From Acidobacteriota bacterium (GTDB taxonomy: Bacteria; Acidobacteriota; Vicinamibacteria; Vicinamibacterales; SCN-69-37), in the NCBI GenBank assembly GCA_020853395.1, contig JADYYY010000007.1, positions 124,001-188,000 on the forward strand: a DNA stretch of 64,000 nucleotides, written 5' to 3'. This document shows, piece by piece, positions 50,048 through 62,786 of this stretch. The stretch's first letter is position 1. Each line of letters opens with the position of its first letter. A program made the position numbers and the translations under genes. The notes below the pieces were generated by a model. That model saw only the letters and a list, made by a program, of their open reading frames with translations, was not told the origin of the DNA and ran no database searches.

Positions 50048-50063
50048 TATGACGTTGCTCATA
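50048..50063. promoter_or_regulatory. Candidate CRP/FNR-like operator upstream of nirK
   Basis: TATGAC-gttg-CTCATA is a palindrome with one mismatched pair and the 4-bp centre typical of FNR-family sites. Its centre is about 42 bp upstream of the start point predicted from the -10-like hexamer at 50086. A perfect version of the palindrome lies at 55469-55484. Confidence 0.55.
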
Positions 50064-50153: not shown

Positions 50154-51626
50154 ATGACTCGGAATATGGCGGGACGAGGGGCGGGTTGGATGGCGGGGAT
50201 GGCGACGATCGTCGTGTTGGGCGGGTGCGGGACGCCACCGCGGCAGGACGCCGCCACGCTGGAAGTGCAAGGCCAGGAAGTGGCGGTGATGACCGACGCG
50301 CCGAACGTGCCGCCGCCCATCACGCGGCGGACGCCCACGAGGGTCGTCGCGAACCTGGAAGTCACCGAAGTGGTCAAGCGGCTCGCCGACGGCGTGGACT
50401 ACACGTTCTGGACGTTCGGCGGCGCGGTGCCGGGCAAGTTCATCCGCGTGCTCGAAGGCGACGAAGTCGAGTTCACGCTGAGCAATCACCCCTCGAGCCG
50501 CATGCCGCACAACATCGATCTGCACGCCGTCACCGGGCCGGGCGGCGGCGCGGCGGCGTCGATGACCGCGCCCGGGCATTCCTCCAAGTTCTCGTTCAAG
50601 GCGATCAATCCTGGGCTCTACGTCTACCACTGCGCCACCGCACCGGTCGGCATGCACGTGGCGAACGGCATGTACGGCCTGATCCTCGTCGAACCACGCG
50701 AGGGCCTGCCGAAGGTCGACCGTGAGTACTACGTGATGCAGAGCGAGTTCTACACGCAGGGCCGCTACGGCGCGCCCGGCCTGCAGCCGTTCAGCATGGA
50801 GAAGGCGCTCACCGAAACGCCCGACTACGTCGTGTTCAACGGAGCGGTTGGCGCGATCAGCGGCGACCAGGCGCTCAAGGCCAGCGTCGGCGAGCGGATC
50901 CGGCTCTTCATGGGCAACGGCGGCCCGAACATCGTCTCGTCGTTCCACGTCATCGGCGAGATCTTCGACAACGTCGTGCACGAAGGCGGGACGATGGTCA
51001 ACCACAACGTGCAGTCGACGATGATCCCGGCCGGCGGCTCGACCATCGTCGAGTTCAAGGTCGAAGTGCCGGGCACGCTGATCCTCGTGGACCACTCGCT
51101 CTTCCGCGCGTTCAACAAGGGCGCGCTCGGGCAGATCAAGGTGGATGGGCCGGACAACGCGCGCGTGTACTCGGGCAAGCAGTCCGACGAGATCTATCAG
51201 CCCGAAGGCGGCGCGATTCAGTCCGTGCCGCAGGCGGGCATTCCGCGGCCGCCGGCCACGAACAAGGCGGAGCGGATCACGCGCGGCCAGGCGTCGTATG
51301 CCGGCACCTGCGCGGCCTGCCACCAGCCGGCCGGCCAGGGTCTGGCCGCCGCGTTCCCGCCGCTCGCCGCGTCCGACTACCTCAACGCCGACAAACGGCG
51401 TGCGATCTCGGCCATCGTCCACGGGTTGAGCGGCGAGGTCACGGTGAAGGGCCAGAAGTTCAACAGCGTGATGCCGGCGCTGACGATGTCGGATGAAGAG
51501 ATCGCCAACGTGCTGACGTACGTGTACAACAACTGGGGCAACGCCGGGTTCGAGGTGACGCCAGCCGAAGTGGCGGCGGTCCGCGCGGCCGCGCCGGCCA
51601 AGGCCGGTGCGCCGGCGGCCGAGTGA
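50154..51626 (+). CDS. nirK: Copper nitrite reductase with C-terminal cytochrome c domain
   Basis: This enzyme reduces nitrite to nitric oxide in the periplasm. The 490-residue lipoprotein (lipobox LGGC, Cys25) has two cupredoxin domains. Type 1 copper ligands are His119, Cys160, His168 and Met173; type 2 ligands are His124, His159 and His314. The catalytic Asp122 and His265 are also present. A mono-haem cytochrome c domain follows from about residue 370, with CAACH (386-390) and a likely axial Met440. The fused cytochrome probably passes electrons directly to type 1 copper. AGGAGG lies before the ATG, and nirV and sco follow in the same direction. Confidence 0.95.
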
Positions 51627-51660
51627 CGCTCGCGCACGCCATCAGCGACGGAACGTGTTC

Positions 51661-52563
51661 ATGAAGGCACGACGACGGGATGAGACGACACGGGTGGCGG
51701 CCAGGGCCGCCATCCTCGTCGTCTGTCTCGCGAGCACCGCCGGCGTCGTGGCGCAGGAGCGCCGCGACGCCGCGGTCTCGAAGCCTCCGGCCGGGATGGT
51801 GACCGTGCCGGCCGGCTCGTACGTGCCGCTCTACCGTCCGCCCACGTCGCCGACCGCCGCGGGGCCGGGGCGCGCCGGCGCCGCGACGCCGGCGGTCCCG
51901 GTCTCCCGCCGCGTCGAGGCGTTCCAGATGGACGTCTTCCCCGTCACGAACGGCGAGTACTTGGAGTTCGTGCGCCAGCATCCCGAGTGGCGCAAGTGGC
52001 GTGTCAAGAAGCTCTTCGCCGAAGAATCGTATCTCTCGCACTGGAAGGACGAGCTCGATCCCGGTCCGCTGGCGCCCGCCGACAGCCCGGTCGTCAACGT
52101 GTCGTGGTTCGCCGCGCGCGCGTACTTGAAAGCGCAGGGCAAGGAGCTGCCGACCGTCGATCAGTGGGAGTACGCGGCGGCGGCGAGCGAAACGCGACGC
52201 GACGCGTCGCGCGACGCGGCCTTCATCGACCGTCTGCGCGTCTGGTACGGTCAGGCGGTGCCGGATCCGCTGCCATCCGTACGCACCGGCTTCCGGAACG
52301 TGTACGGCATCCGCGGCCTGCACGGACTCGTCTGGGAGTGGACGCTCGACTTCAACTCCGCGCTGGTGAGCGGCGAATCACGCGCCGACAGCGCGCTCGA
52401 GCGGTCGCTGTACTGCGGCAGCGGCGCGAGCGGCGCCGCCGACTTCGAGAACTATCCGGCATTCATGCGCTACGCGCTGCGGAGCAGCCTGCAGGCGCGG
52501 TACGCCGTCGGCAGCCTGGGCTTCCGCGGCGTCCGGAACCTGCCATCCGGAGGAACACGATGA
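51661..52563 (+). CDS. nirV: NirV-like protein, formylglycine-generating-enzyme fold
   Basis: This 300-residue secreted protein has a signal peptide (about residues 12-32) and an FGE/SUMF1-type domain: FQMDVFPVTNGEYLEFV, PVVNVSWFAARAYLKAQGK, LPTVDQWEYAA and GLHGLVWEWTLDF. Genes of this type next to nirK are known as nirV. Only one Cys (LYCGSGASG) remains where active formylglycine-generating enzymes have a redox pair, and GSLGFRGVR replaces the usual GFRCAR end, so catalytic activity as an FGE is unlikely. A role in NirK maturation or stability is inferred. The next gene overlaps its stop. Confidence 0.85.
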   Translation: MKARRRDETTRVAARAAILVVCLASTAGVVAQERRDAAVSKPPAGMVTVPAGSYVPLYRPPTSPTAAGPGRAGAATPAVPVSRRVEAFQMDVFPVTNGEYLEFVRQHPEWRKWRVKKLFAEESYLSHWKDELDPGPLAPADSPVVNVSWFAARAYLKAQGKELPTVDQWEYAAAASETRRDASRDAAFIDRLRVWYGQAVPDPLPSVRTGFRNVYGIRGLHGLVWEWTLDFNSALVSGESRADSALERSLYCGSGASGAADFENYPAFMRYALRSSLQARYAVGSLGFRGVRNLPSGGTR

Positions 52564-53195
52564 CCGCGTCGCCGATCGCACGCACCGCCGGCCTCGTGCT
52601 GGCGTTGACCGTCGCCGCCAGCAGCCTCGCCGGGTGCGGCGACCGCCAGCCATCGGCGGCGGCATCCGCGCCGGCCGCCTCCCGCGATCTGCCGCCTGAC
52701 GGAACGCTCACGGGCGAGTCGATCTTCGATCTCGACCTTCCGCTCGTCGACCACGCGGGCCGCACGCTGAAGCTCGCGGACCTCGGCGGGCACGTGATGG
52801 TCGCCGCGATGGTGTACACGTCGTGCACGACCATCTGCATCATGATCACCGAGGAGATGAAGCAGATCGAACGGCAACTGGCCGGCGTCGATCGCGACGT
52901 GCGCTACGTGCTGTTCTCGCTCGACCCCGGGCGCGACACGCCGGCCGCGATGCAGCAGTTCGCGAAGGCGCACGAGCTCGACACGAGCCGCTGGACGCTG
53001 TACGCGGCATCCGAGGAAGGCGTGCGCGATCTGGCCGCCGTGCTGGGCGTGAAGTACCGCGAGGAGGAGAACGGCGAGATCGCGCACTCGGCGATGATCT
53101 TCGTCATCGACGGCCGCGGCGTCGTGCGGCACCGCCAGGTCGGCGTCCGGCAGGATCCGGCGCCGCTCGTCGCCGCCGTCCAGAAAGCCCGCTAG
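52560..53195 (+). CDS. SCO1/SenC family copper chaperone lipoprotein
   Basis: SCO proteins deliver copper to the CuA site of subunit II of haem-copper enzymes. This 211-residue lipoprotein (lipobox SLAGC) has the thioredoxin-like SCO fold with the copper ligands Cys-x3-Cys in SCTTIC and the distal His in EIAHSAMIF. The ATG overlaps the nirV stop. Its placement between nirK and a CuA-containing enzyme fits a copper-supply role for either. Confidence 0.92.
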   Translation: MTASPIARTAGLVLALTVAASSLAGCGDRQPSAAASAPAASRDLPPDGTLTGESIFDLDLPLVDHAGRTLKLADLGGHVMVAAMVYTSCTTICIMITEEMKQIERQLAGVDRDVRYVLFSLDPGRDTPAAMQQFAKAHELDTSRWTLYAASEEGVRDLAAVLGVKYREEENGEIAHSAMIFVIDGRGVVRHRQVGVRQDPAPLVAAVQKAR

Positions 53196-53286: not shown

Positions 53287-53865
53287 TCAGGGTCGAATCT
53301 CGAACAGCGCGCGCCGTTCGGGGTCGTAGCTGATGAGCCGTACCTGTCCTGGCGAGAAGTCCAGCCGCGCGTTGTACGTCAGGGCCGCCGGCACCGCCTC
53401 GATCAGCTCCTCGTGCCGACGCGACGCGTCGCGCCCGGCGGACGTGGCGTTCGCATCCGGCGCGCCCGCCGTGTCGCCGCCGATGCGCGTGAACCGGACG
53501 GTGATGTCGGCCGGACCAGCCGGCACATGAATCTCGTGGAAAACGTAGAGCGGCCGGTCGCGGCGGAGTCCGCCGGGGTGCACGGGCGCCGTGAGCAGCA
53601 CCGTGGAGTCCCGGAGGACCTCCAACTGGTAGGACGCGTTCGCGCCCTCGCAGATGACCGGCTGCCGCATGTGCGGCGGCAGCGCCTTCAGCGCGTCGGG
53701 GCTTTGCTCATGGCACTCCTCGATGCGCTCGGGGCGCGCGCGCCACGTCAGACGCAGCACCGCCTCCTGGCCGCCTGACTGCGGCAGCGGGACCTGCGAG
53801 AGCACGGCGATTCCCGCGGCCGCGATCATGCCACCCGCCAACCCGATCACGCGAGCCATCGTCAT
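53287..53865 (-). CDS. Membrane-anchored hypothetical protein coupled to the cytochrome b fusion
   Basis: This 192-residue protein has one N-terminal membrane helix (ARVIGLAGGMIAAAGIAVLS), and the rest is probably periplasmic and beta-rich. Two Cys (ECHEQSPD and PVICEGANA) could form a disulfide or bind a cofactor, but no known motif is present. I do not recognise the family. The ATG at 53865 overlaps the stop of the cytochrome b fusion gene (ATGA), suggesting it is an accessory or subunit of that protein. Confidence 0.75.
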   Translation of the reverse strand: MTMARVIGLAGGMIAAAGIAVLSQVPLPQSGGQEAVLRLTWRARPERIEECHEQSPDALKALPPHMRQPVICEGANASYQLEVLRDSTVLLTAPVHPGGLRRDRPLYVFHEIHVPAGPADITVRFTRIGGDTAGAPDANATSAGRDASRRHEELIEAVPAALTYNARLDFSPGQVRLISYDPERRALFEIRP

Positions 53866-55418
53866 CTCAGCACTTCCTCGGGGACGGTCTCGCACACGGC
53901 GGCGTCGCCGGCGTCGACCGGTTCCGGCGCGGCCGTGCCGAGCGCCGCGATGTCGGCCTTGAACGCGCGCACTGCCGCGAGCGCCAGCGCGGATTCATGG
54001 GCGCCAGCGTAGGTGATCCGCACGCGCGCTCTCGGTACTCTGGGCTGCAGCTCGGCCTCGCGCCCCTGGAACATCCGCTCGGCCAGCCACTTCGGCCCTT
54101 CGCGATTCCAGCAGTCGCGAGGCGGACACGCGATCACCAGCACGCCGCCGGCGCCGTCGCGAACGAGGCGCTCGATCACGGACGTGTGCAGGTTGCCGGC
54201 GCACGAGACCGGCCGGAAGGCGGCGCCAGCGGACTCGATCGCCGGCGCGAATCGCCCGGCGCCGCGCTCGCAGCCGAGAGCGACGACGCTGCCGTGCCGC
54301 ACGGTGGTCATGACCTCACGGGCCGCCGCGAGCTGGTCCCGCCCCGTGCGGCCCGCCGGTCCGATGCCCATCGGCGCGCAGGACGCCGAGCAGATACCGC
54401 AGCTCACGCACAGATCCGGATTCACCTCGGCGACGAGCGTCGGACGCGCGTCCGTCCTCGGCACCATCTCGATGGCGCCGTAGGGACAGTCGGTGGCGCA
54501 GTGCGTGCAGCCCGTGCAGACGTCGGGATCGACCGTCGACGCCGGAGGTCTCGCCCCCCGAGGCCGGCGCGTGAACGCGGGCACGACCAACAACGCCGCG
54601 GCTGCGCCGGTCAGCAGCGCCAAGAGCGCGCCGCCGCCGATCCTCGAGCTGAGCGGCAGCCAGAACGCGACGAAGACGTCGGCCGGCACCACGGTGGGCA
54701 GCGCGAACGGATTGGCTTTCGGCACCATGACCAGGGGCCGCGCGATCGCGACCGCGGCCAGCAGGCCCACCACGGTCCACAGCAGCGGACGCGGCGGCAG
54801 CAGCATCGGCCGCTGCAGCCGCTTGACGTGCAGCCAGAACATGACGCCCATGCCGAGCGGCACGCCGATGTGCGCGAAGAGCGTGATGAAGAAGAACACG
54901 CTCGGCACCGGGCGCTCGCCCGTGAACGCGCGGCTCACCGGCTCCGACAGGACCGGCAGCCGGTCGGCCATCCGCGCGCCGGCGACCGCGAGCTGCTCGC
55001 CGAACGTGTCCCAGACCATCACGTAGCCGGTCCACGCACAGAGGTAGAGCAGCACCACCAGCAGCCCGCCGGTGACCCACGCCATCGTGCGTGCGCCCCA
55101 GCTTCGCGCCTGCGCGAACATCCGGACGGCGTGCACGGCGGTCGCGACGATCGCCGCGTCGGTCGCGTACCGATGCAGGCCCCGCACCCAGTTGCCGAGC
55201 CAGAGGTCGCCGGTCAGCCGGCTCACCGATTCCCATGGCGCGCCCACGCGATAGAACAGCAGCAGCCAGACCCCGGTGACGAGCAGCACCAGCCACATCG
55301 CCACCGCAATCGTGCCGCTCTGGTAGAGGGGATTGAACCGCCAGGTATAGAGCCGGTTCGCGATCGCATCGGCTCTCGTCACGAGCCCGAGCATCGCGCG
55401 CTCGATCGTCTTCAGCAT
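53862..55418 (-). CDS. Cytochrome b / 2x[4Fe-4S] ferredoxin / MvhD-like fusion protein
   Basis: This 518-residue electron-transfer fusion has an N-terminal cytochrome b/b6-type membrane domain (about 1-280). Two His pairs with the x13 spacing of b haems are present: His82/His96 and His183/His197. A ferredoxin domain follows, with CTGCTHCATDCPYG (301-314) and CVSCGICSASCAPMG (337-351). The last part (about 375-470) resembles the MvhD/FlpD delta subunit of heterodisulfide-reductase complexes, with Cys383, Cys406, Cys431 and Cys436. It probably links the quinone pool or a cytoplasmic low-potential donor to periplasmic acceptors. It is divergent from the CuA oxidoreductase operon. The combination is unusual and its role is inferred. 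Confidence 0.88.
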   Translation of the reverse strand: MLKTIERAMLGLVTRADAIANRLYTWRFNPLYQSGTIAVAMWLVLLVTGVWLLLFYRVGAPWESVSRLTGDLWLGNWVRGLHRYATDAAIVATAVHAVRMFAQARSWGARTMAWVTGGLLVVLLYLCAWTGYVMVWDTFGEQLAVAGARMADRLPVLSEPVSRAFTGERPVPSVFFFITLFAHIGVPLGMGVMFWLHVKRLQRPMLLPPRPLLWTVVGLLAAVAIARPLVMVPKANPFALPTVVPADVFVAFWLPLSSRIGGGALLALLTGAAAALLVVPAFTRRPRGARPPASTVDPDVCTGCTHCATDCPYGAIEMVPRTDARPTLVAEVNPDLCVSCGICSASCAPMGIGPAGRTGRDQLAAAREVMTTVRHGSVVALGCERGAGRFAPAIESAGAAFRPVSCAGNLHTSVIERLVRDGAGGVLVIACPPRDCWNREGPKWLAERMFQGREAELQPRVPRARVRITYAGAHESALALAAVRAFKADIAALGTAAPEPVDAGDAAVCETVPEEVLR

Positions 55419-55468: not shown

Positions 55469-55484
55469 TATGACGAGTGTCATA
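55469..55484. promoter_or_regulatory. Perfect 6-4-6 palindrome, candidate CRP/FNR-like operator
   Basis: TATGAC-gagt-GTCATA is a perfect inverted repeat in the divergent region between the cytochrome b fusion and the CuA enzyme operon. On the minus strand a -10-like TACGAT (55447-55442) places the predicted start near 55435, exactly 41.5 bp from the palindrome centre. A near copy precedes nirK. Confidence 0.6.
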
Positions 55485-55519: not shown

Positions 55520-55690
55520 ATGCGCACTCCTGCTGAGACTCCTCACTCCGACGACGCCGTGCCGCTCGGCCAGCGCCTCTTCGACAACGTGTTCCTGCTG
55601 CTCGGGGCCGGTCTGCTCGTCATGCTGCTCGTCTACACCGGCTGGGGTCTCGTGGAAGTGCTGACGCTTCCGCCCGCCCCGCTTCCCTGA
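55520..55690 (+). CDS. Single-helix small subunit of the CuA haem-copper enzyme
   Basis: This 56-residue peptide starts MRTPAETPHSDDAVPLGQRL and has one membrane helix (FLLLGAGLLVMLLVYTGWGLV), with short polar ends. It is below the size limit of usual gene calls, but it has an uninterrupted frame from ATG to TGA, membrane character, and lies 8 bp before the subunit II gene. B-family oxidases (ba3) contain a similar one-helix subunit IIa, so I infer the same role here. The Shine-Dalgarno is weak (G-rich, far upstream). Confidence 0.7.
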   Translation: MRTPAETPHSDDAVPLGQRLFDNVFLLLGAGLLVMLLVYTGWGLVEVLTLPPAPLP

Positions 55691-55698
55691 GGTACGTC

Positions 55699-56277
55699 AT
55701 GCTGACCGACACGCACACCGGGCTGGACTTCCCCCAGGGCACCTGGTGGAAACCGGCGCACAAATCCGAGAAGGTCTGGGTCGCCATCGCCTTCGTCTGG
55801 TGCATGGTGCTCTTCGCCATGATGCCGCTCTGGCACTGGAAAGGCGGCCAGAACCCGTCGGGCATCCGCCGGACGACGACGCCCGCCGACTTCATGGCGC
55901 GGGTGACGGAGTTCACGAACCAGTACAAGGTCGGCGAGGATCGCGGGCTGCCGATCGTGGCGCCGCCGCCCGGCGCCGACGTGTACCTCGTCGCCTACTC
56001 GTTCCAGTGGTCGCCGATTCTCAAGCTGCAGAAGAACGTCGAGTACACGCTCCATCTCTCGTCGCTCGACGTGAACCACGGCTTCTCGCTCTACCCGATC
56101 AACGTCAATTTCCAGGTCGTCCCCGGCTACGACTACGGGCTGCGCGTCACGCCCAACGCGGCGGGCGACTTCCGGATCATCTGCAATGAGTTCTGCGGCA
56201 TCGGCCACCACATCATGGTCGGCCGCGTGATGGTGGACGACGCGCCGTCCGTGGCGTCCCTGGGAGGTGTGCGATGA
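55699..56277 (+). CDS. CuA-containing subunit II of a haem-copper oxidoreductase
   Basis: This 192-residue subunit II receives electrons from a periplasmic donor. One N-terminal membrane helix (about 26-46) anchors a cupredoxin domain. The binuclear CuA ligands are complete: His127 (LDVNHGFSLY), Cys162 and Cys166 (CNEFCGIGHH), His170 and Met173, plus Glu164 between the cysteines. The single anchor helix and compact size resemble B-family (ba3-type) enzymes. GAGG precedes the ATG, and the stop overlaps the subunit I start (ATGA). Confidence 0.93.
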   Translation: MLTDTHTGLDFPQGTWWKPAHKSEKVWVAIAFVWCMVLFAMMPLWHWKGGQNPSGIRRTTTPADFMARVTEFTNQYKVGEDRGLPIVAPPPGADVYLVAYSFQWSPILKLQKNVEYTLHLSSLDVNHGFSLYPINVNFQVVPGYDYGLRVTPNAAGDFRIICNEFCGIGHHIMVGRVMVDDAPSVASLGGVR

Positions 56278-58037
56278 GTGCGGCGACGGCTCCGCTCGCG
56301 CCGATCGAGACGGCGGTGTTCCGCACCTGTCCGGCGACCGGCCGGCGGATCGATCTCTCGGCCGAGCGGCTGGTCAAGGTCCACGCGGTCTCGTCGGTGG
56401 TCTCGCTCCTCGTGGGCGCGGTCGCGGCGGTGCTGCTCGTGCTCACGCGCTGGCAGGCCGTGCACCTGCTGCCGGCCGAGTGGTTCTACCGGATCCTCGG
56501 CGTGCACGGCATGAGCATGCTGATCTTCTTCATCATCTTCTTCGAGATGGCCGTGCTGATCTTCGCGAGCACGGCGCTGCTCAACGCGCGTCAGGTCGCG
56601 ACGAAGACGGCGTGGGCCGCCTTCGCGCTGATGCTCGCCGGCGCGCTCGTCGTCGAGTGGATGATGTGGTCGGGCAACGCCGACGTGCTGTTCACGTCGT
56701 ACGTGCCGCTGCGCGCCGACCCGAAGTTCTACCTCGGCGTGATCCTCTTCGCCGTCGGCGCGCTCGTCACCGTCGGGCTGTTCTTCGCGAACCTCGTCTA
56801 CGCGAAGCGGGAGCAGCGGTACCAGGGCTCGCTCCCGCTCGTCGTCTACGGCGCCGTGACGGCGGCGATCATCGCGGTGATCACGCTCGTGCACGGCGCG
56901 GCGATCTACATCCCGACGTACCTCTGGTCGCTCGGCCTCATGGAGGTCGATCCGCAGATCTACCGGCTCATCTGGTGGGGGCTCGGACACTCGTCGCAGC
57001 AGATCAACGTCGCCGCGATGGTCGCGATCTGGTACATGCTCGGGGCGCTGACGGTCGGCTCCGTCGTGCTCAACGAGAAGATCAGCCGCTCGGCGTTCGT
57101 GCTCTACGTGCTGTTCATCTCGATGGCCTCGGCCCATCACCTGCTCGTCGATCCCGGCATGGGCCCGGCGTGGAAGATCGTCAACACCAGCTACTTCATG
57201 TACATGGCGGTGCTGGCGTCGATGATCCACGGCTTCACGGTCCCAGCCGGCATGGAGCTGGGCATGCGGCTGCGCGGGTTCACACAGGGTATGTTCGACT
57301 GGCTGCGGCGCGCCCCGTGGGGCGACCCGGGCTTCAGCGCGCTGATCTTCTCGGTGGTCGTCTTCGGCTTCGTCGGCGGCATCACCGGCGTGACGATCGG
57401 CACCGAGCAGATCAACATCATCGTGCACAACACGCTGCGCGTGCCGGGCCACTTCCACGCCACGGTCGTGAGCGGCACGGCGATGGCGTTCATGGGCGCG
57501 ACGTACTATCTCATCCCGCTCATCTTCCGGAAGAAGGTCGCGTTCTGGCCGCTCGCGAAGATCCAGCCGTACCTGTTCGCCGGCGGCATGCTGATCTTCA
57601 CGCTGTCGATGACGTTCGCCGGCAGCTTCGGCGTGCCGCGGCGTCACTGGGACATCAGCTTCAGCGGCGCGCCGTTCGACGTGCAGTTCAACCCGATCGT
57701 GGACGTCGTGCTGGCCGTCGTCGCGCTCGGCGGGCTGCTCGCCGCCACCGGCGCCTTCGCCTTCATCGCGATCGCCGTCGCGTCGGTGTTCTTCGGTGAG
57801 CCGCTCGGCACGATCCCCAAGGGCGTCGTCGTCGCCGGCATCCCGCAGGGGCTGACGCAGCCGCCCGTCCATGCCGCGGACGTGGACACGAGGAGCCGCG
57901 CGCTGCACGACGCCTCGCGCGGCCTCATGGGGCCGACGCCCGGCACGATCGCGCTCGTGTTCGTCTTCCTCGCCGCGTTCGTCCTCTACTTCTTCGTCAA
58001 CTGGAAGGTGCTGTCCTTCCTCTGGAGGATCGGATGA
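56274..58037 (+). CDS. Haem-copper oxidoreductase subunit I, probable NO reductase
   Basis: This 587-residue catalytic subunit has at least twelve membrane helices. All six metal-ligand His are visible: His78 (low-spin haem), His239 (helix VI, CuB), His288/His289 (helix VII) and His393/His395 in PGHFHATV. The stretches HHLLVDPGMGPAWKI and GFTVPAGMELG align with B-family (ba3) oxidases. In place of the HPxVY motif there is HSSQQ, so the cross-linked active-site Tyr is Gln243. This loss is characteristic of NO-reducing members (such as the eNOR/sNOR/nNOR groups), not of oxygen reductases. Adjacency to nirK supports an NO-to-N2O role. An oxidase with altered chemistry is not excluded. Confidence 0.85.
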   Translation: MSAATAPLAPIETAVFRTCPATGRRIDLSAERLVKVHAVSSVVSLLVGAVAAVLLVLTRWQAVHLLPAEWFYRILGVHGMSMLIFFIIFFEMAVLIFASTALLNARQVATKTAWAAFALMLAGALVVEWMMWSGNADVLFTSYVPLRADPKFYLGVILFAVGALVTVGLFFANLVYAKREQRYQGSLPLVVYGAVTAAIIAVITLVHGAAIYIPTYLWSLGLMEVDPQIYRLIWWGLGHSSQQINVAAMVAIWYMLGALTVGSVVLNEKISRSAFVLYVLFISMASAHHLLVDPGMGPAWKIVNTSYFMYMAVLASMIHGFTVPAGMELGMRLRGFTQGMFDWLRRAPWGDPGFSALIFSVVVFGFVGGITGVTIGTEQINIIVHNTLRVPGHFHATVVSGTAMAFMGATYYLIPLIFRKKVAFWPLAKIQPYLFAGGMLIFTLSMTFAGSFGVPRRHWDISFSGAPFDVQFNPIVDVVLAVVALGGLLAATGAFAFIAIAVASVFFGEPLGTIPKGVVVAGIPQGLTQPPVHAADVDTRSRALHDASRGLMGPTPGTIALVFVFLAAFVLYFFVNWKVLSFLWRIG

Positions 58038-58915
58038 CCTCCGCGACTCGCGCCTCGTCGGCCCTGGCGGCTCTCCTCGCCATCCTCGGCATCACGGCGG
58101 CCTGGTGGGCGCTGGCGCTGTGGCCCGTCGACGCGTCGGCGCCCGAGTGGTTCCTGCGCACGCGCGAGGTCTGTTTCGGATCGGTCCGCAACGGCCTGCC
58201 GAACGCTGGCGGGTGGATCCTGCTCATCGGGCAGCCGCTCGGCATGCTGCTCGTGCTCGCCGTGGTGTGGACAGCGGACCTCCGCGCCGGGCTCGCACGA
58301 CTGACCAGCCGGCTGCCCGGCCAGCTCGCCGCCGGCGCCCTTGCGGCCGCGATCGTCGCCGGCCTGGGGGGCGTGGTCGTTCGCGTCTCCGGCGCGACGG
58401 CCGACACGTTCTCCGCCGGGAGCGTCCGCGACAACGCCGCCGCCCTCACGCGGATCGACGATGCGCCGCCGGAGATGACGCTCGTCGATCAGCACGGCAC
58501 TACGGTGACGCTTGACCAGTTCCGCGGCCGTCCCGTCCTCGTCACGTTCGCCTACGCGCACTGCGAGACGGTCTGTCCCGTCATCGTCGCCGACGTGACG
58601 ACGGCGGCCGCGCGGCTCGTCGAAGAACGGCCGGCGGTGCTCGTCATCACGCTCGATCCGTGGCGCGACACGCCCGGCCGGCTTCCGGCGATGGCTGCCG
58701 CCTGGCACCTCGCCGGCGACGCACGCGTGCTGTCGGGCGAACCCACCGCGGTGGATCGGGTGCTCAACGCCTGGCGCATCCCGCGCGTGCGCAACGAGCG
58801 CACGGGCGATCTGTCACACCCGTCGCTCGTCTACGTGATCAACTCGAACGGACGCATCAACTACGTGCTCACGGGCGGCGCAGACCACATCGTTGCGGCG
58901 GTCAAACATCTGTAA
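58034..58915 (+). CDS. SCO1/SenC domain protein with multi-helix N-terminus
   Basis: This 293-residue protein has about three hydrophobic segments in the first 120 residues (LAALLAILGITAAWWALALWP, here split as ALAALLAILGITAA; GGWILLIGQPLGMLLVLAVV; LAAGALAAAIVAGLGGVVV). A SCO domain follows with Cys-x3-Cys in AHCETVCPV and the copper His in DLSHPSLVYV. The ATG overlaps the subunit I stop (ATGA). It is probably the dedicated CuA or CuB assembly factor of this enzyme. The long membrane part is unusual for SCO proteins, which normally have a single anchor. Confidence 0.88.
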   Translation: MTSATRASSALAALLAILGITAAWWALALWPVDASAPEWFLRTREVCFGSVRNGLPNAGGWILLIGQPLGMLLVLAVVWTADLRAGLARLTSRLPGQLAAGALAAAIVAGLGGVVVRVSGATADTFSAGSVRDNAAALTRIDDAPPEMTLVDQHGTTVTLDQFRGRPVLVTFAYAHCETVCPVIVADVTTAAARLVEERPAVLVITLDPWRDTPGRLPAMAAAWHLAGDARVLSGEPTAVDRVLNAWRIPRVRNERTGDLSHPSLVYVINSNGRINYVLTGGADHIVAAVKHL

Positions 58916-59485: not shown

Positions 59486-60277
59486 CTACCATCCCGCCTG
59501 CAGCACGAGCGCCGCCCACCCGTGGCGATCCTCGCGCCGCACGGGCCGCATCCCAGCTCGACGGTACACCTGCTCGACCTCGCCGGCGACCGAACTCGCG
59601 ATTCCGGACAACACGAGCGTGCCGTAATGCGCGAGCCGGCGGATCAGTGCCGGTGCCATGTCCATCAGCGGAGCGGCGAGGATGTTCGCGAACGCGAGCG
59701 GCCACGCGCCGGTCAGGCTCTCCGGTCCTCCCTCGACGAGCTGCAGGTGCGCCGCCAGGCCATTCAGCCGCGCGTTGACCGCCGCGGCGCGGATCGCGGT
59801 GTGGTCCACGTCGATCGCGGTGGCGCACAGCACGCCCAGGCGCAGCGCCGCAAGCGCGAGCACGCCCGATCCGGTGCCGACGTCGAGCACACACGCGGGC
59901 GGCGCATCGCCGACTTCGTCGTCGAGGATCTCGAGACAAAGAGCGGTCGTCGGATGAAGCCCTGTCCCGAACGCCTCGCCGTCGATCATTCGCAGGCCGT
60001 CCACGGGCCGCGGCCAGCCGGCCGGCACAATGACGGTGCGGCCGACCTGCACCGGTCGGGGGACGAGAATCCAGACCGACCCGGCATCGCGTCCACGCAC
60101 GGCCGACACCCGCACGCCGGTCGCGCCGATCGCGTCGACGACGGTCTGAACACTCACCTCGTCCGGCAGGATCGCCGCGACGTGCCCGCGGACGAGGTCC
60201 ACGTCGAGCGCCCCCAGATCCACGAGCCGATCGAGTGCGTCGGACGCCGGCGTTTCCAGATCGAGACGGTAGGGCAT
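59486..60277 (-). CDS. prmA: Ribosomal protein L11 methyltransferase
   Basis: PrmA trimethylates ribosomal protein L11 using SAM. The 263-residue protein has the PrmA signature region DGEAFGTGLHPTTALCLEIL, motif I VLDVGTGSGVLALAALRLG, motif II IDVDHTAIRAA and the catalytic-loop ANILAAPLMDM in place of the NILA motif. The N-terminal substrate-recognition domain is present but shorter than usual. It starts at 60277, next to the pyrimidine tract. Confidence 0.91.
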   Translation of the reverse strand: MPYRLDLETPASDALDRLVDLGALDVDLVRGHVAAILPDEVSVQTVVDAIGATGVRVSAVRGRDAGSVWILVPRPVQVGRTVIVPAGWPRPVDGLRMIDGEAFGTGLHPTTALCLEILDDEVGDAPPACVLDVGTGSGVLALAALRLGVLCATAIDVDHTAIRAAAVNARLNGLAAHLQLVEGGPESLTGAWPLAFANILAAPLMDMAPALIRRLAHYGTLVLSGIASSVAGEVEQVYRRAGMRPVRREDRHGWAALVLQAGW

Positions 60278-60279
60278 GG

Positions 60280-60376
60280 TCTTCTCTCTTCTTCCCTTTT
60301 CCCTTTCCCCTTCGCCCCTTCCTTTTCCCTTCGTCCCTTCACCTTTGCCCTCTGCCCTTTGCCCTTTGCCCTGTAT
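60280..60376 (-). repeat. Polypyrimidine 'CCCTTTG' tract
   Basis: Repeated ttttccc, tttgccc and ccttcccc units lie between the divergent prmA and PQQ dehydrogenase genes. It is the inverted complement of the tract at 58914-58992, so the two enclose the GNAT-prmA pair. It ends in ccctgtatga, close to the ccttgtatga that ends the tract before nirK. Confidence 0.8.
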
Positions 60377-60401
60377 GATTTCTCAACTCAAGGAGCTTCC
60401 C

Positions 60402-62786
60402 ATGGCAGGTACTCGCCTTCTCGGACGTCCCTCCCGGCCGTCGTCTCCACGCGTACGACGTGCGCCGTTCGCGCTGATCGCCGCGTTGCTCGTGGTCGCG
60501 ATCGGGACCGGAGCAGGTCTGGCACAGCGTAGCGGCAACACGAACCCGCGTGCCTTGCCCGGCGCCGACAGCTCGAACTTCGTGGACTTCGACCAGATCA
60601 CGAAGACCAACGTGAAGAACCTGCAGGTCGCCTGGTACTACCCGCACGCGGCGGCGATCTTCAGCCCCGTCGCGGTCGACGGCGTGCTCTACGGTCTCGG
60701 CCGCAACAGCTCCGCGCTCGTCGCGCTCGACGCGACGACGGGCAAGGAGATCTGGGTGCACGATGGGCTGCAGGGCATCGTCAGCAAGGGCATCAACTTC
60801 TGGCAGAGCGAGGACGGCAAGGATCGGCGGCTGCTCTTCTCGGTCAACAGCTTCCTGCAGGCGATCGACGCGCGCACGGGCAAGTCGATCCTGAGCTTCG
60901 GCAAGAACGGCATCGTGGACATGCGCGCCGGGCTGCGGCGCGCGGAGGGCACCGGCGCGAGCGCGCAGCAGAACAGCCCGGGCCGGATCTGGCGCAACCT
61001 GCTCATCCTCGGCGGATCGTCCGGCGAGGCGTTCATCACGCCGCCGGGAGACATCCGCGCATACGACGTGGTCACCGGCGAGAGGGTCTGGCAGTTCCAC
61101 ACCGTGCCAGAGCCCGGCGAGTTCGGCTACGAAACGAACCCGAAGGAAGGCTACAAGTACATCGGCGGCGCCAACAACTGGGGCGAGATGTCGGTCGACG
61201 AGGAACGCGGAATCGTCTACATCCCGACCGGCTCGGCCACGTACGATTTCTACGGCGCCGACCGGCACGGCGCGAACCTCTTCGCCAACTGTCTGCTCGC
61301 GCTCGACGCGCGCACCGGCAAGCGGCTCTGGCACTTTCAGACGATCCACCACGACCTCTGGGATCTCGACAACGTCTCGGCACCACAGCTCGTCACGGTG
61401 CGGCAGAACGGCCAGACGATTCCGGCCGTCGCGCACGCCGGCAAGACCGGATTCCTCTACGTCTTCAACCGCGTCACGGGTCAGCCGCTCTGGCCGATCG
61501 AGGAACGGCCGGTGATGAAGACGGACGTCCCGGGCGAGTACTCGTCGCCGACGCAGCCGTTCCCCACCAAACCGCCCGCGTTCGTCCGACAGTCGTTCGG
61601 GGTCGACGATGTGAACCCGTGGCTGCTGTCGAAGGAGCAGTACGAGGACATGCGCGCCCGTGTGGCGAAGGCGAAGAACGGCACCGGCCCGCAGGGTGGC
61701 CTGTTCATTCCGCCGAGCCTCGGCATCGAGTCGATCTCGATGCCGGGCAATCAGGGCGGCGCCAATTGGGGCGTCACGGCCGGCGATCCCCAGAGGGGCA
61801 TGGTCTTCGTCGTCGGCGTCAACCAGGTGGCGTTGCTCAAGCTGGAGGACGTGAAGACGCGACAGGGCGGGAGCGACAACCAGGCGTCCGGCACCGTGCT
61901 CTCGCGCGGCCAGGCCGCCTACGCCCAGCACTGCAGCACGTGCCATGGCGCGAACATGCAGGGCGCGCAGCCTGGTGTGCCGTCGATCGTCGGCGTGACG
62001 TCGCGGATGGACGCCGACGCGATCCGCGCGATCGTGCAGGAAGGGCGAGGGCTGATGCGCCCGCTGCTCGAGATCGGATCGCAGGATCTGAACGCCATCG
62101 TGGCGTACCTCACGGCGACCAACCCGTTCGGACGTGGCGGCGGTGCGAACGCGGCGGCGATGGGTGGTCCGTCGCTGCCGCCGGGGCCGACCGTCGCCAC
62201 GGGCGGCGCTCCGCGGCCCGCGGTGCCGGCGCGCGGCCTTGGGCCTTACTACCCTGGCGCCGGCGGCAACGCCGGCAACATCCCCTGGCCCGACGAGCTG
62301 GAGGACAAGAGCTTCCTCCCGCCGACGCGCTTCATGAGCGGCTACAACGTGATGGCGACCTACACCAAGCCGCCGTACACGACGTTGACGGCGTACGATC
62401 TCAACAGCGGGACCATCAAGTGGCAGATCGCGCCGGGCGATCATCCGCCCACCGTCGCGCGCGGCGGTCCGCGCGGCACGGGCGGCGTCGGCGCGCGCAA
62501 CGGCGTGCTCGTCACCCGATCCGGCATCGTCTTCCACGCCGCCGGCGACTACAAAGTGCGCGCCTACGATGAGGACACCGGCAAGGAACTGTGGTCGGGC
62601 GCCATTCCGGGATCGGCGCGTGGCATCCCCACCATGTACATGGCGAACGGCAAGCAGTACCTCGTGATCGCGGTGCCGGCCGGTCAGGTACAACCCGGCG
62701 CGGCGCCTGGCGCCGACGCCGAGACCGGCGCGCCCGTCGTCACAGAGACGACGCCGCGCGGGTACGTCGCGTTCGCGCTGCCGTAG
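60402..62786 (+). CDS. PQQ-dependent dehydrogenase with inserted cytochrome c domain
   Basis: This 794-residue secreted quinoprotein is of the glucose/alcohol dehydrogenase-like eight-bladed propeller type common in Acidobacteriota. It has a signal peptide (about residues 19-41, ending AGLAQ). The W-docking repeats include ALVALDATTGKEIWVHDG, LLALDARTGKRLWHFQ, YDLNSGTIKWQIAPGDH and YDEDTGKELWSGAIPG. A mono-haem cytochrome c domain (CSTCH at residues 511-515) is inserted within the propeller, so electrons from PQQ can leave directly through haem. The substrate is unknown; PQQ-binding itself is inferred from the family. AAGGAG precedes the ATG at 60402. Confidence 0.9.
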   Translation: MAGTRLLGRPSRPSSPRVRRAPFALIAALLVVAIGTGAGLAQRSGNTNPRALPGADSSNFVDFDQITKTNVKNLQVAWYYPHAAAIFSPVAVDGVLYGLGRNSSALVALDATTGKEIWVHDGLQGIVSKGINFWQSEDGKDRRLLFSVNSFLQAIDARTGKSILSFGKNGIVDMRAGLRRAEGTGASAQQNSPGRIWRNLLILGGSSGEAFITPPGDIRAYDVVTGERVWQFHTVPEPGEFGYETNPKEGYKYIGGANNWGEMSVDEERGIVYIPTGSATYDFYGADRHGANLFANCLLALDARTGKRLWHFQTIHHDLWDLDNVSAPQLVTVRQNGQTIPAVAHAGKTGFLYVFNRVTGQPLWPIEERPVMKTDVPGEYSSPTQPFPTKPPAFVRQSFGVDDVNPWLLSKEQYEDMRARVAKAKNGTGPQGGLFIPPSLGIESISMPGNQGGANWGVTAGDPQRGMVFVVGVNQVALLKLEDVKTRQGGSDNQASGTVLSRGQAAYAQHCSTCHGANMQGAQPGVPSIVGVTSRMDADAIRAIVQEGRGLMRPLLEIGSQDLNAIVAYLTATNPFGRGGGANAAAMGGPSLPPGPTVATGGAPRPAVPARGLGPYYPGAGGNAGNIPWPDELEDKSFLPPTRFMSGYNVMATYTKPPYTTLTAYDLNSGTIKWQIAPGDHPPTVARGGPRGTGGVGARNGVLVTRSGIVFHAAGDYKVRAYDEDTGKELWSGAIPGSARGIPTMYMANGKQYLVIAVPAGQVQPGAAPGADAETGAPVVTETTPRGYVAFALP

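Follow-up and report, generated by a model that had tools for sequence, protein, structure and literature searches.

Which gas is reduced by a haem-copper enzyme that is built like a B-family oxygen reductase and linked to a CuA subunit, but that carries glutamine in place of the active-site tyrosine? The question is raised by a four-gene operon (positions 55520-58915, forward strand) in a stretch of 64,000 nucleotides, hereafter the window, from an Acidobacteriota bacterium of the order Vicinamibacterales (assembly GCA_020853395.1, contig JADYYY010000007.1, positions 124,001 to 188,000). An initial sequence-only reading had proposed an NO-reducing complex comparable to the eNOR, sNOR or nNOR groups. 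The sequence, the phylogenetic tree, the regulation and what the genome contains all support this proposal and allow the subgroup to be named: the operon very likely encodes a nitric oxide (NO) reductase of the eNOR family. That reading had passed over the most distinctive neighbour of the operon, a divergent gene (53862-55418) for a cytochrome b-ferredoxin-FlpD protein, which is the best new lead of this analysis.

Active site and family of the catalytic subunit

The haem/CuB catalytic subunit I (56274..58037, forward strand; 587 residues) scores 207 bits against the Pfam COX1 family. Among solved structures it comes closest to the Thermus ba3 oxidases, both by sequence (E about 1e-44) and by Foldseek on the predicted fold (E 5e-19). 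With the B-family O2 reductase of Thermus thermophilus it shares the overall fold, the CuA subunit and all six haem and CuB histidines (H78=H72, H239=H233, H288/H289=H282/H283, H393=H384, H395=H386 in the alignment), at about 24% identity in the structural alignment; the ba3-type likeness and the six ligands had already been read from the letters. The two enzymes differ, however, in helix VI, where Gln243 occupies the position of the cross-linked Tyr237, the very replacement that the sequence-only reading had pointed out, and further by the changes of Tyr244 to Val250 and of Thr312 to His319. Glutamine stands at this position in 113 of 113 aligned homologues, rows that were chosen as Gln-bearing, and no row of comparable similarity (over about 45% identity) carried another residue; Gln243 is thus neither a chance substitution nor a sequencing error. 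Identity to subunit I is 45% or more for the Gln sequences and about 30% for the Tyr sequences. Together with Gln243, the residues Glu91, His239, Gln242, Asn245, Tyr254 and Tyr278 never vary among the homologues.

O2 reductases require the cross-linked active-site tyrosine. In the C-family (cbb3) enzymes this residue presumably comes from helix VII, six residues before the HH pair, and a tyrosine supplied from another helix had been named beforehand as evidence that would speak for O2 reduction. None was found at this position: subunit I has Ile282 there, and each of the 113 homologues has either Ile or Leu, which gives no sign of a cbb3-like supply from helix VII.

The sequence-only reading had the coordinates right, and the other genes that it described for the operon are present. 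A small one-helix subunit of 56 residues (55520..55690; ATG at 55520, TGA at 55688-55690) is followed by the CuA-bearing subunit II (55699..56277), which sits directly upstream of subunit I, as in eNOR, and by a SCO1/SenC protein with N-terminal membrane segments (58034..58915; PF02630, 87.5 bits), probably the CuA assembly factor. All are on the forward strand, and neighbouring frames overlap by ATGA at 56274 (subunits II and I) and at 58034 (subunit I and SCO). Read from the translation, the CuA motif is complete (CNEFCGIGHHIM), as had been claimed; subunit II matches the CoxB profile with an E value of 2e-12, too weakly to pass that model's own cut-off. Among 84 related eNOR loci, homologues of the small subunit, of subunit II and of the SCO protein are found in 78, 82 and 67, respectively.

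The eNOR family was reportedly named by Hemp and Gennis in 2008, and one member, from Rhodothermus marinus, is said in citing papers to have been biochemically characterised and shown to reduce NO by Murali et al. in 2024. The residue at the tyrosine position is a signature of these groups: Gln in eNOR, Asn in sNOR/bNOR and Asp in gNOR (PMC8756737), Asn being also reported for CuA-NOR/sNOR (PMC3475470). Neither Asn nor Asp matches Gln243, and in place of the features of cNOR and qNOR (an active-site Glu; a haem c subunit or a fused quinol-type subunit) the complex has Gln243 and a CuA subunit. One of the listed eNOR proteins is from Thermus (PMC8756737), and the homologues on Thermus plasmids have the same Gln; an operon containing eNOR and NirK was published in 2015 for Ardenticatena maritima (PMC4653789). 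We have therefore filed the enzyme of the window under eNOR. The SCO gene, with norSY-senC as a precedent, had first suggested sNOR, which was ruled out by the presence of Gln instead of Asn. The sNOR/bNOR (CuA-NOR) enzymes of Nitrosomonas and Bacillus do resemble this complex by their Tyr-less B-family-like subunit I, CuA subunit, small peptide and SenC gene, but differ by the Asn at the tyrosine position. An Asn-type enzyme, sought as an sNOR reference in 300 genomes of the order of locus L104, was not recognised in any of them.

Scanning one genome per species yielded at least 472 relatives, and the best 80, which were retained, belong by their record titles to Gemmatimonadota, Acidobacteriota, Pseudomonadota, Chloroflexota, Bacteroidota, Spirochaetota, Aquificota and others; the viral contigs scanned contained none. 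A tree was built by a quick search from 54 sequences of subunit I and includes some long branches; in it, the Gln group forms a single clade and 20 Tyr-bearing B-family oxidases a separate one, each with a support of 99 in the Shimodaira-Hasegawa-like approximate likelihood ratio test (SH-aLRT). Subunit I is placed with L007, from the same family, amid Gemmatimonadota and Acidobacteriota sequences. L008, from a genome of the same phylum, pairs with the Acidobacteriota record L054, a weak hint at the host phylum in a tree with transfers between phyla. The Gln clade takes in sequences from Thermus and Ardenticatenaceae, two groups for which eNOR has been published, none of its members being verified by name as a published eNOR. 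As judged from signature and tree, the subunit I complex belongs to eNOR. It is a further member of this family, with which it shares the Gln at the tyrosine position, the CuA subunit II directly upstream, the B-family-like subunit I, the NirK neighbour reported in Ardenticatena and, probably, the single predicted proton channel; no structural difference was found in the enzyme itself. What differs is the host lineage and the cytochrome b-ferredoxin-FlpD partner, both absent from the eNOR literature examined, which did not cover the defining 2024 paper; no link of eNOR with Acidobacteriota and nirK together was found in that literature.

A divergent cytochrome b-ferredoxin-FlpD gene

The partner gene (53862..55418, reverse strand) codes for 518 residues that combine a cytochrome b6-like part, two 4Fe-4S sites, both Cys-rich, and an FlpD/MvhD-like domain. 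Its histidines 82, 96, 183 and 197 are invariant and form two pairs, 14 residues apart within each. In the predicted model (pLDDT, predicted local distance difference test, 90.6), one part matches cytochrome b/b6 and another MvhD of the heterodisulfide reductase complex, and no NCBIfam equivalog fits the protein. The four haem-ligand histidines and their spacing are those of cytochrome b6 and of the ExtP-type cytochrome b; in contrast to these, the partner has fused Fe-S and FlpD domains and reaches 82 bits against an ExtP cut-off of 290. Ferredoxin and FlpD domains are likewise present in the C-terminal part of HdrA2 and in MvhD (heterodisulfide reductase-hydrogenase), whose MvhD-like fold it shares (5odc_D, TMt 0.67), but in the partner both domains follow a di-haem, cytochrome b6-like membrane part within one fused chain, and the HdrA flavin domain is absent. 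No cytochrome b-FlpD protein has been described with eNOR in the literature examined, the 2024 eNOR paper again not being covered. The partner is followed by a gene for a small protein (53287..53895, reverse strand) without Pfam or NCBIfam match, a homologue of which is found in 42/84 eNOR loci.

The genetic tie between the partner and eNOR is apparent in two genome samples. Within the phylum of the window (247 genomes), a partner scoring at least 180 bits is present in 5/5 genomes with a Gln-type eNOR and in 0/242 others; within another order (300 genomes), one of more than 550 bits is present in 21 of the 23 genomes with eNOR and in none of the 277 others. The corresponding Fisher p values (1e-10 and 3e-30) ignore kinship and are descriptive, since the gap that separates full-length from partial matches was known when the score limits were chosen. 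At the locus level, 51 eNOR loci are flanked by 3.5 kb or more on both sides, and 45 of these include the partner: in 30 it lies downstream in the same orientation and in 15, as in the window, upstream and divergent. In eight eNOR genomes, some of them on short contigs, the locus did not show the partner, and six of these carry it elsewhere.

The partner is also the only PF00033 cytochrome b match in the genome of the window. As the sole cytochrome b found there, it does not belong to a bc1 complex, a role that had been considered. It is apparently an undescribed membrane electron carrier, almost confined to bacteria with eNOR, and it probably delivers electrons toward this enzyme. It is conceivable, though we hold the idea only tentatively, that most eNOR work with such a dedicated, undescribed electron-input protein, through which NO reduction would draw on the quinone pool or on a cytoplasmic Fe-S donor, no bc1 complex being needed. 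If the partner is indeed the electron donor, it would be a marker for eNOR-based NO respiration and would make it testable how eNOR enzymes are fed and whether energy is conserved.

A second type of cytochrome b, about 290 residues in a frame of about 660, occurs near eNOR in many Betaproteobacteria (e.g. G341:C2:357674-358543) and matches the haem part of the partner with 320-370 bits.

Regulation, denitrification and rival functions

The divergent promoter of the eNOR operon and the partner gene contains the palindrome TATGACGAGTGTCATA (TATGAC-N4-GTCATA; 55469..55484), a candidate operator, probably of the Crp/Fnr type. In a genome scan, perfect copies of this palindrome occur four times vs 0.017 expected, and sites with at most one mismatch seven times vs about 0.9 expected. 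The perfect sites are located at eNOR (one), between a RIC-type gene for Fe-S repair, which a Crp/Fnr-type regulator gene adjoins (L125:5695-6384), and a narGHJI cluster (two), and before a TonB-receptor gene (one). The one-mismatch sites precede nirK (50048..50063, 90 bases before the gene), a narXL-like pair and a gene whose product, on inspection by eye, was taken for a small cytochrome c. When up to two mismatches are allowed, 15 of 82 related loci have the palindrome upstream of eNOR, vs a mean of 3.0 in mononucleotide shuffles.

The NirK nitrite reductase, which the sequence-only reading had placed nearby, lies at 50154..51626 on the forward strand, has a C-terminal cytochrome c domain, scores above the cut-off of its model (TIGR02376, 360.4 bits vs 296.3) and is probably the source of NO. 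Neither cNOR nor qNOR is recognisable in the genome, where one weak COX1 match corresponds to an NnrS-like protein, and no NosZ scores above its cut-off, cupredoxin fragments only being found. N2O (nitrous oxide) is thus the predicted end product, and with NarGHJI, NirK and eNOR present, the genome is predicted to be an N2O source. Putative eNOR subunits are frequently annotated as cytochrome c oxidase (PMC8756737), so that N2O producers of this kind can be overlooked in surveys.

From these data we infer the following scheme. A Crp/Fnr-type regulator probably turns on the operon jointly with nitrate and nitrite reduction, so that the cell would run from nitrate through nitrite and NO to N2O and stop there. 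The divergent cytochrome b-ferredoxin-FlpD protein would pass electrons toward eNOR, where they would flow from the CuA of subunit II to the low-spin haem b and on to the high-spin haem/CuB site of subunit I. At this site, with Gln243 where O2 reductases have Tyr, two NO would be converted to N2O and water. The protons would probably be taken from the cytoplasm via a modified K-type channel (Tyr254, Ser316, His319, Thr322), in which case the reaction would be electrogenic. Such a path is plausible: the ba3 K-channel residues Tyr248, Ser309 and Thr315 (the last mostly) are kept as Tyr254, Ser316 and Thr322, Thr322 being retained in most homologues and Tyr254, Ser316 and His319 in nearly all.

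Energy conservation by eNOR is only suggested by this modified but conserved channel. The enzyme may instead serve mainly for NO detoxification, uncoupled from cytoplasmic proton uptake and energy conservation, an alternative that concerns the coupling and not the reaction. The RIC-type repair gene in the same regulon and the replacement of two ba3 K-channel residues (Tyr244 by Val250, Thr312 by His319) are in favour of this alternative, which we nevertheless consider unlikely, if deserving attention: Tyr254, Ser316 and His319 are conserved in nearly all homologues, eNOR is predicted to have one proton channel in a published table (PMC8756737), a dedicated electron carrier co-occurs with the enzyme, and this is the sole recognisable NO reductase in a genome having NarGHJI and NirK.

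Several points weigh against the assignment to a NO-reducing eNOR. The tie to the characterised Rhodothermus enzyme depends on the Gln signature and on papers that cite its description, and the eNOR genes of Thermus and Thermomicrobium have no partner gene nearby. The tree check proposed by the sequence-only reading was realised for the Gln clade, which stands apart from the 20 Tyr-bearing B-family oxidases, but the tree is without sNOR, bNOR, gNOR and nNOR sequences. Finally, sNOR, another Tyr-less B-type enzyme, was suggested in a Nitrosomonas study as a possible high-affinity oxidase (PMC6967387). By analogy, the window could encode a ba3-type high-affinity O2 reductase working without the cross-linked Tyr and induced at low oxygen alongside the denitrification genes, a function compatible with its B-family fold and CuA subunit. 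This is very improbable, considering the invariant Gln with no tyrosine at the C-family position, the clade separate from Tyr-bearing enzymes, the regulon shared with nar, nirK and RIC, and the presence in the genome of three other oxidases, all of the A family and Tyr-bearing; moreover, it would leave NirK without a recognisable NO sink. Membership of a different Tyr-less B-family group, sNOR or nNOR for instance, is very improbable too, since sNOR and CuA-NOR have Asn and gNOR Asp where every member of this group has Gln; the signature comparison covered sNOR, CuA-NOR, gNOR and cNOR/qNOR. In favour of such a membership is the order small subunit-CuA subunit-subunit I-SCO, which has been described for the CuA-NOR/sNOR cluster of Bacillus as well (PMC3475470).

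Neighbouring genes and variants in related loci

Directly 3' of nirK lies a gene for an FGE-sulfatase-like protein (51607..52563; PF03781, 95.9 bits), and a second SCO protein is encoded at 52569..53195 (PF02630, 73 bits), both on the forward strand. A NirK gene with an FGE-sulfatase-like gene and a SCO gene nearby, as in the window at 50154-53195, recurs in five eNOR loci (L041, L048, L072, L096, L109). A PQQ-dependent dehydrogenase with a cytochrome c domain adjoins the cluster (60276-62786), and a tRNA is the sole Rfam match in the window. The perfect palindrome before the TonB-receptor gene (G000:C11:287440-287455; L127:3941) is located about 100 bases before a fusion of sirohydrochlorin-chelatase-like and TonB B12-type receptor sequences.

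In Thermus, the subunit I homologue is near nitrite reductase, Rrf2 and DUF542 genes, which favours a role in NO reduction. A match to an Rrf2-type gene is found in 28/84 loci, and in many Gemmatimonadota (e.g. L033, L038, L059) this gene separates the eNOR operon from the partner gene; it is a candidate NsrR-like NO sensor that would replace the palindrome. Homologues of CyoE (haem o synthase) occur in 25/84 loci, including many proteobacterial eNOR clusters (e.g. L020, L087-L091, L101-L104), and point to a special haem in part of the family. At the position of His395, the low-spin haem b ligand, six loci (L022, L023, L072, L080, L094, L107) have GHFK for GHFH; the carriers are Thermus and a separate Bacteroidota/Aquificota branch, and the variant therefore apparently has at least two origins.

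Two further types of COX1-like protein were encountered. The first, with the motif GGGHxLQ, has His at the positions of H78, H239, H393 and H395 without the CuB HH pair, and is encoded no more than about 10 kb away from eNOR in one Balneolaceae genome and many Betaproteobacteria (L138, L174, L175, L171; as second frames in L066, L070, L071, L073, L076, L096); it was not found in the genome of the window. The second is a divergent COX1 group (L143, on an Azospirillum plasmid, L172 and L173) with HNxHY in helix VI, YH for the CuB HH and GYFHF at the expected high-spin haem ligand His.

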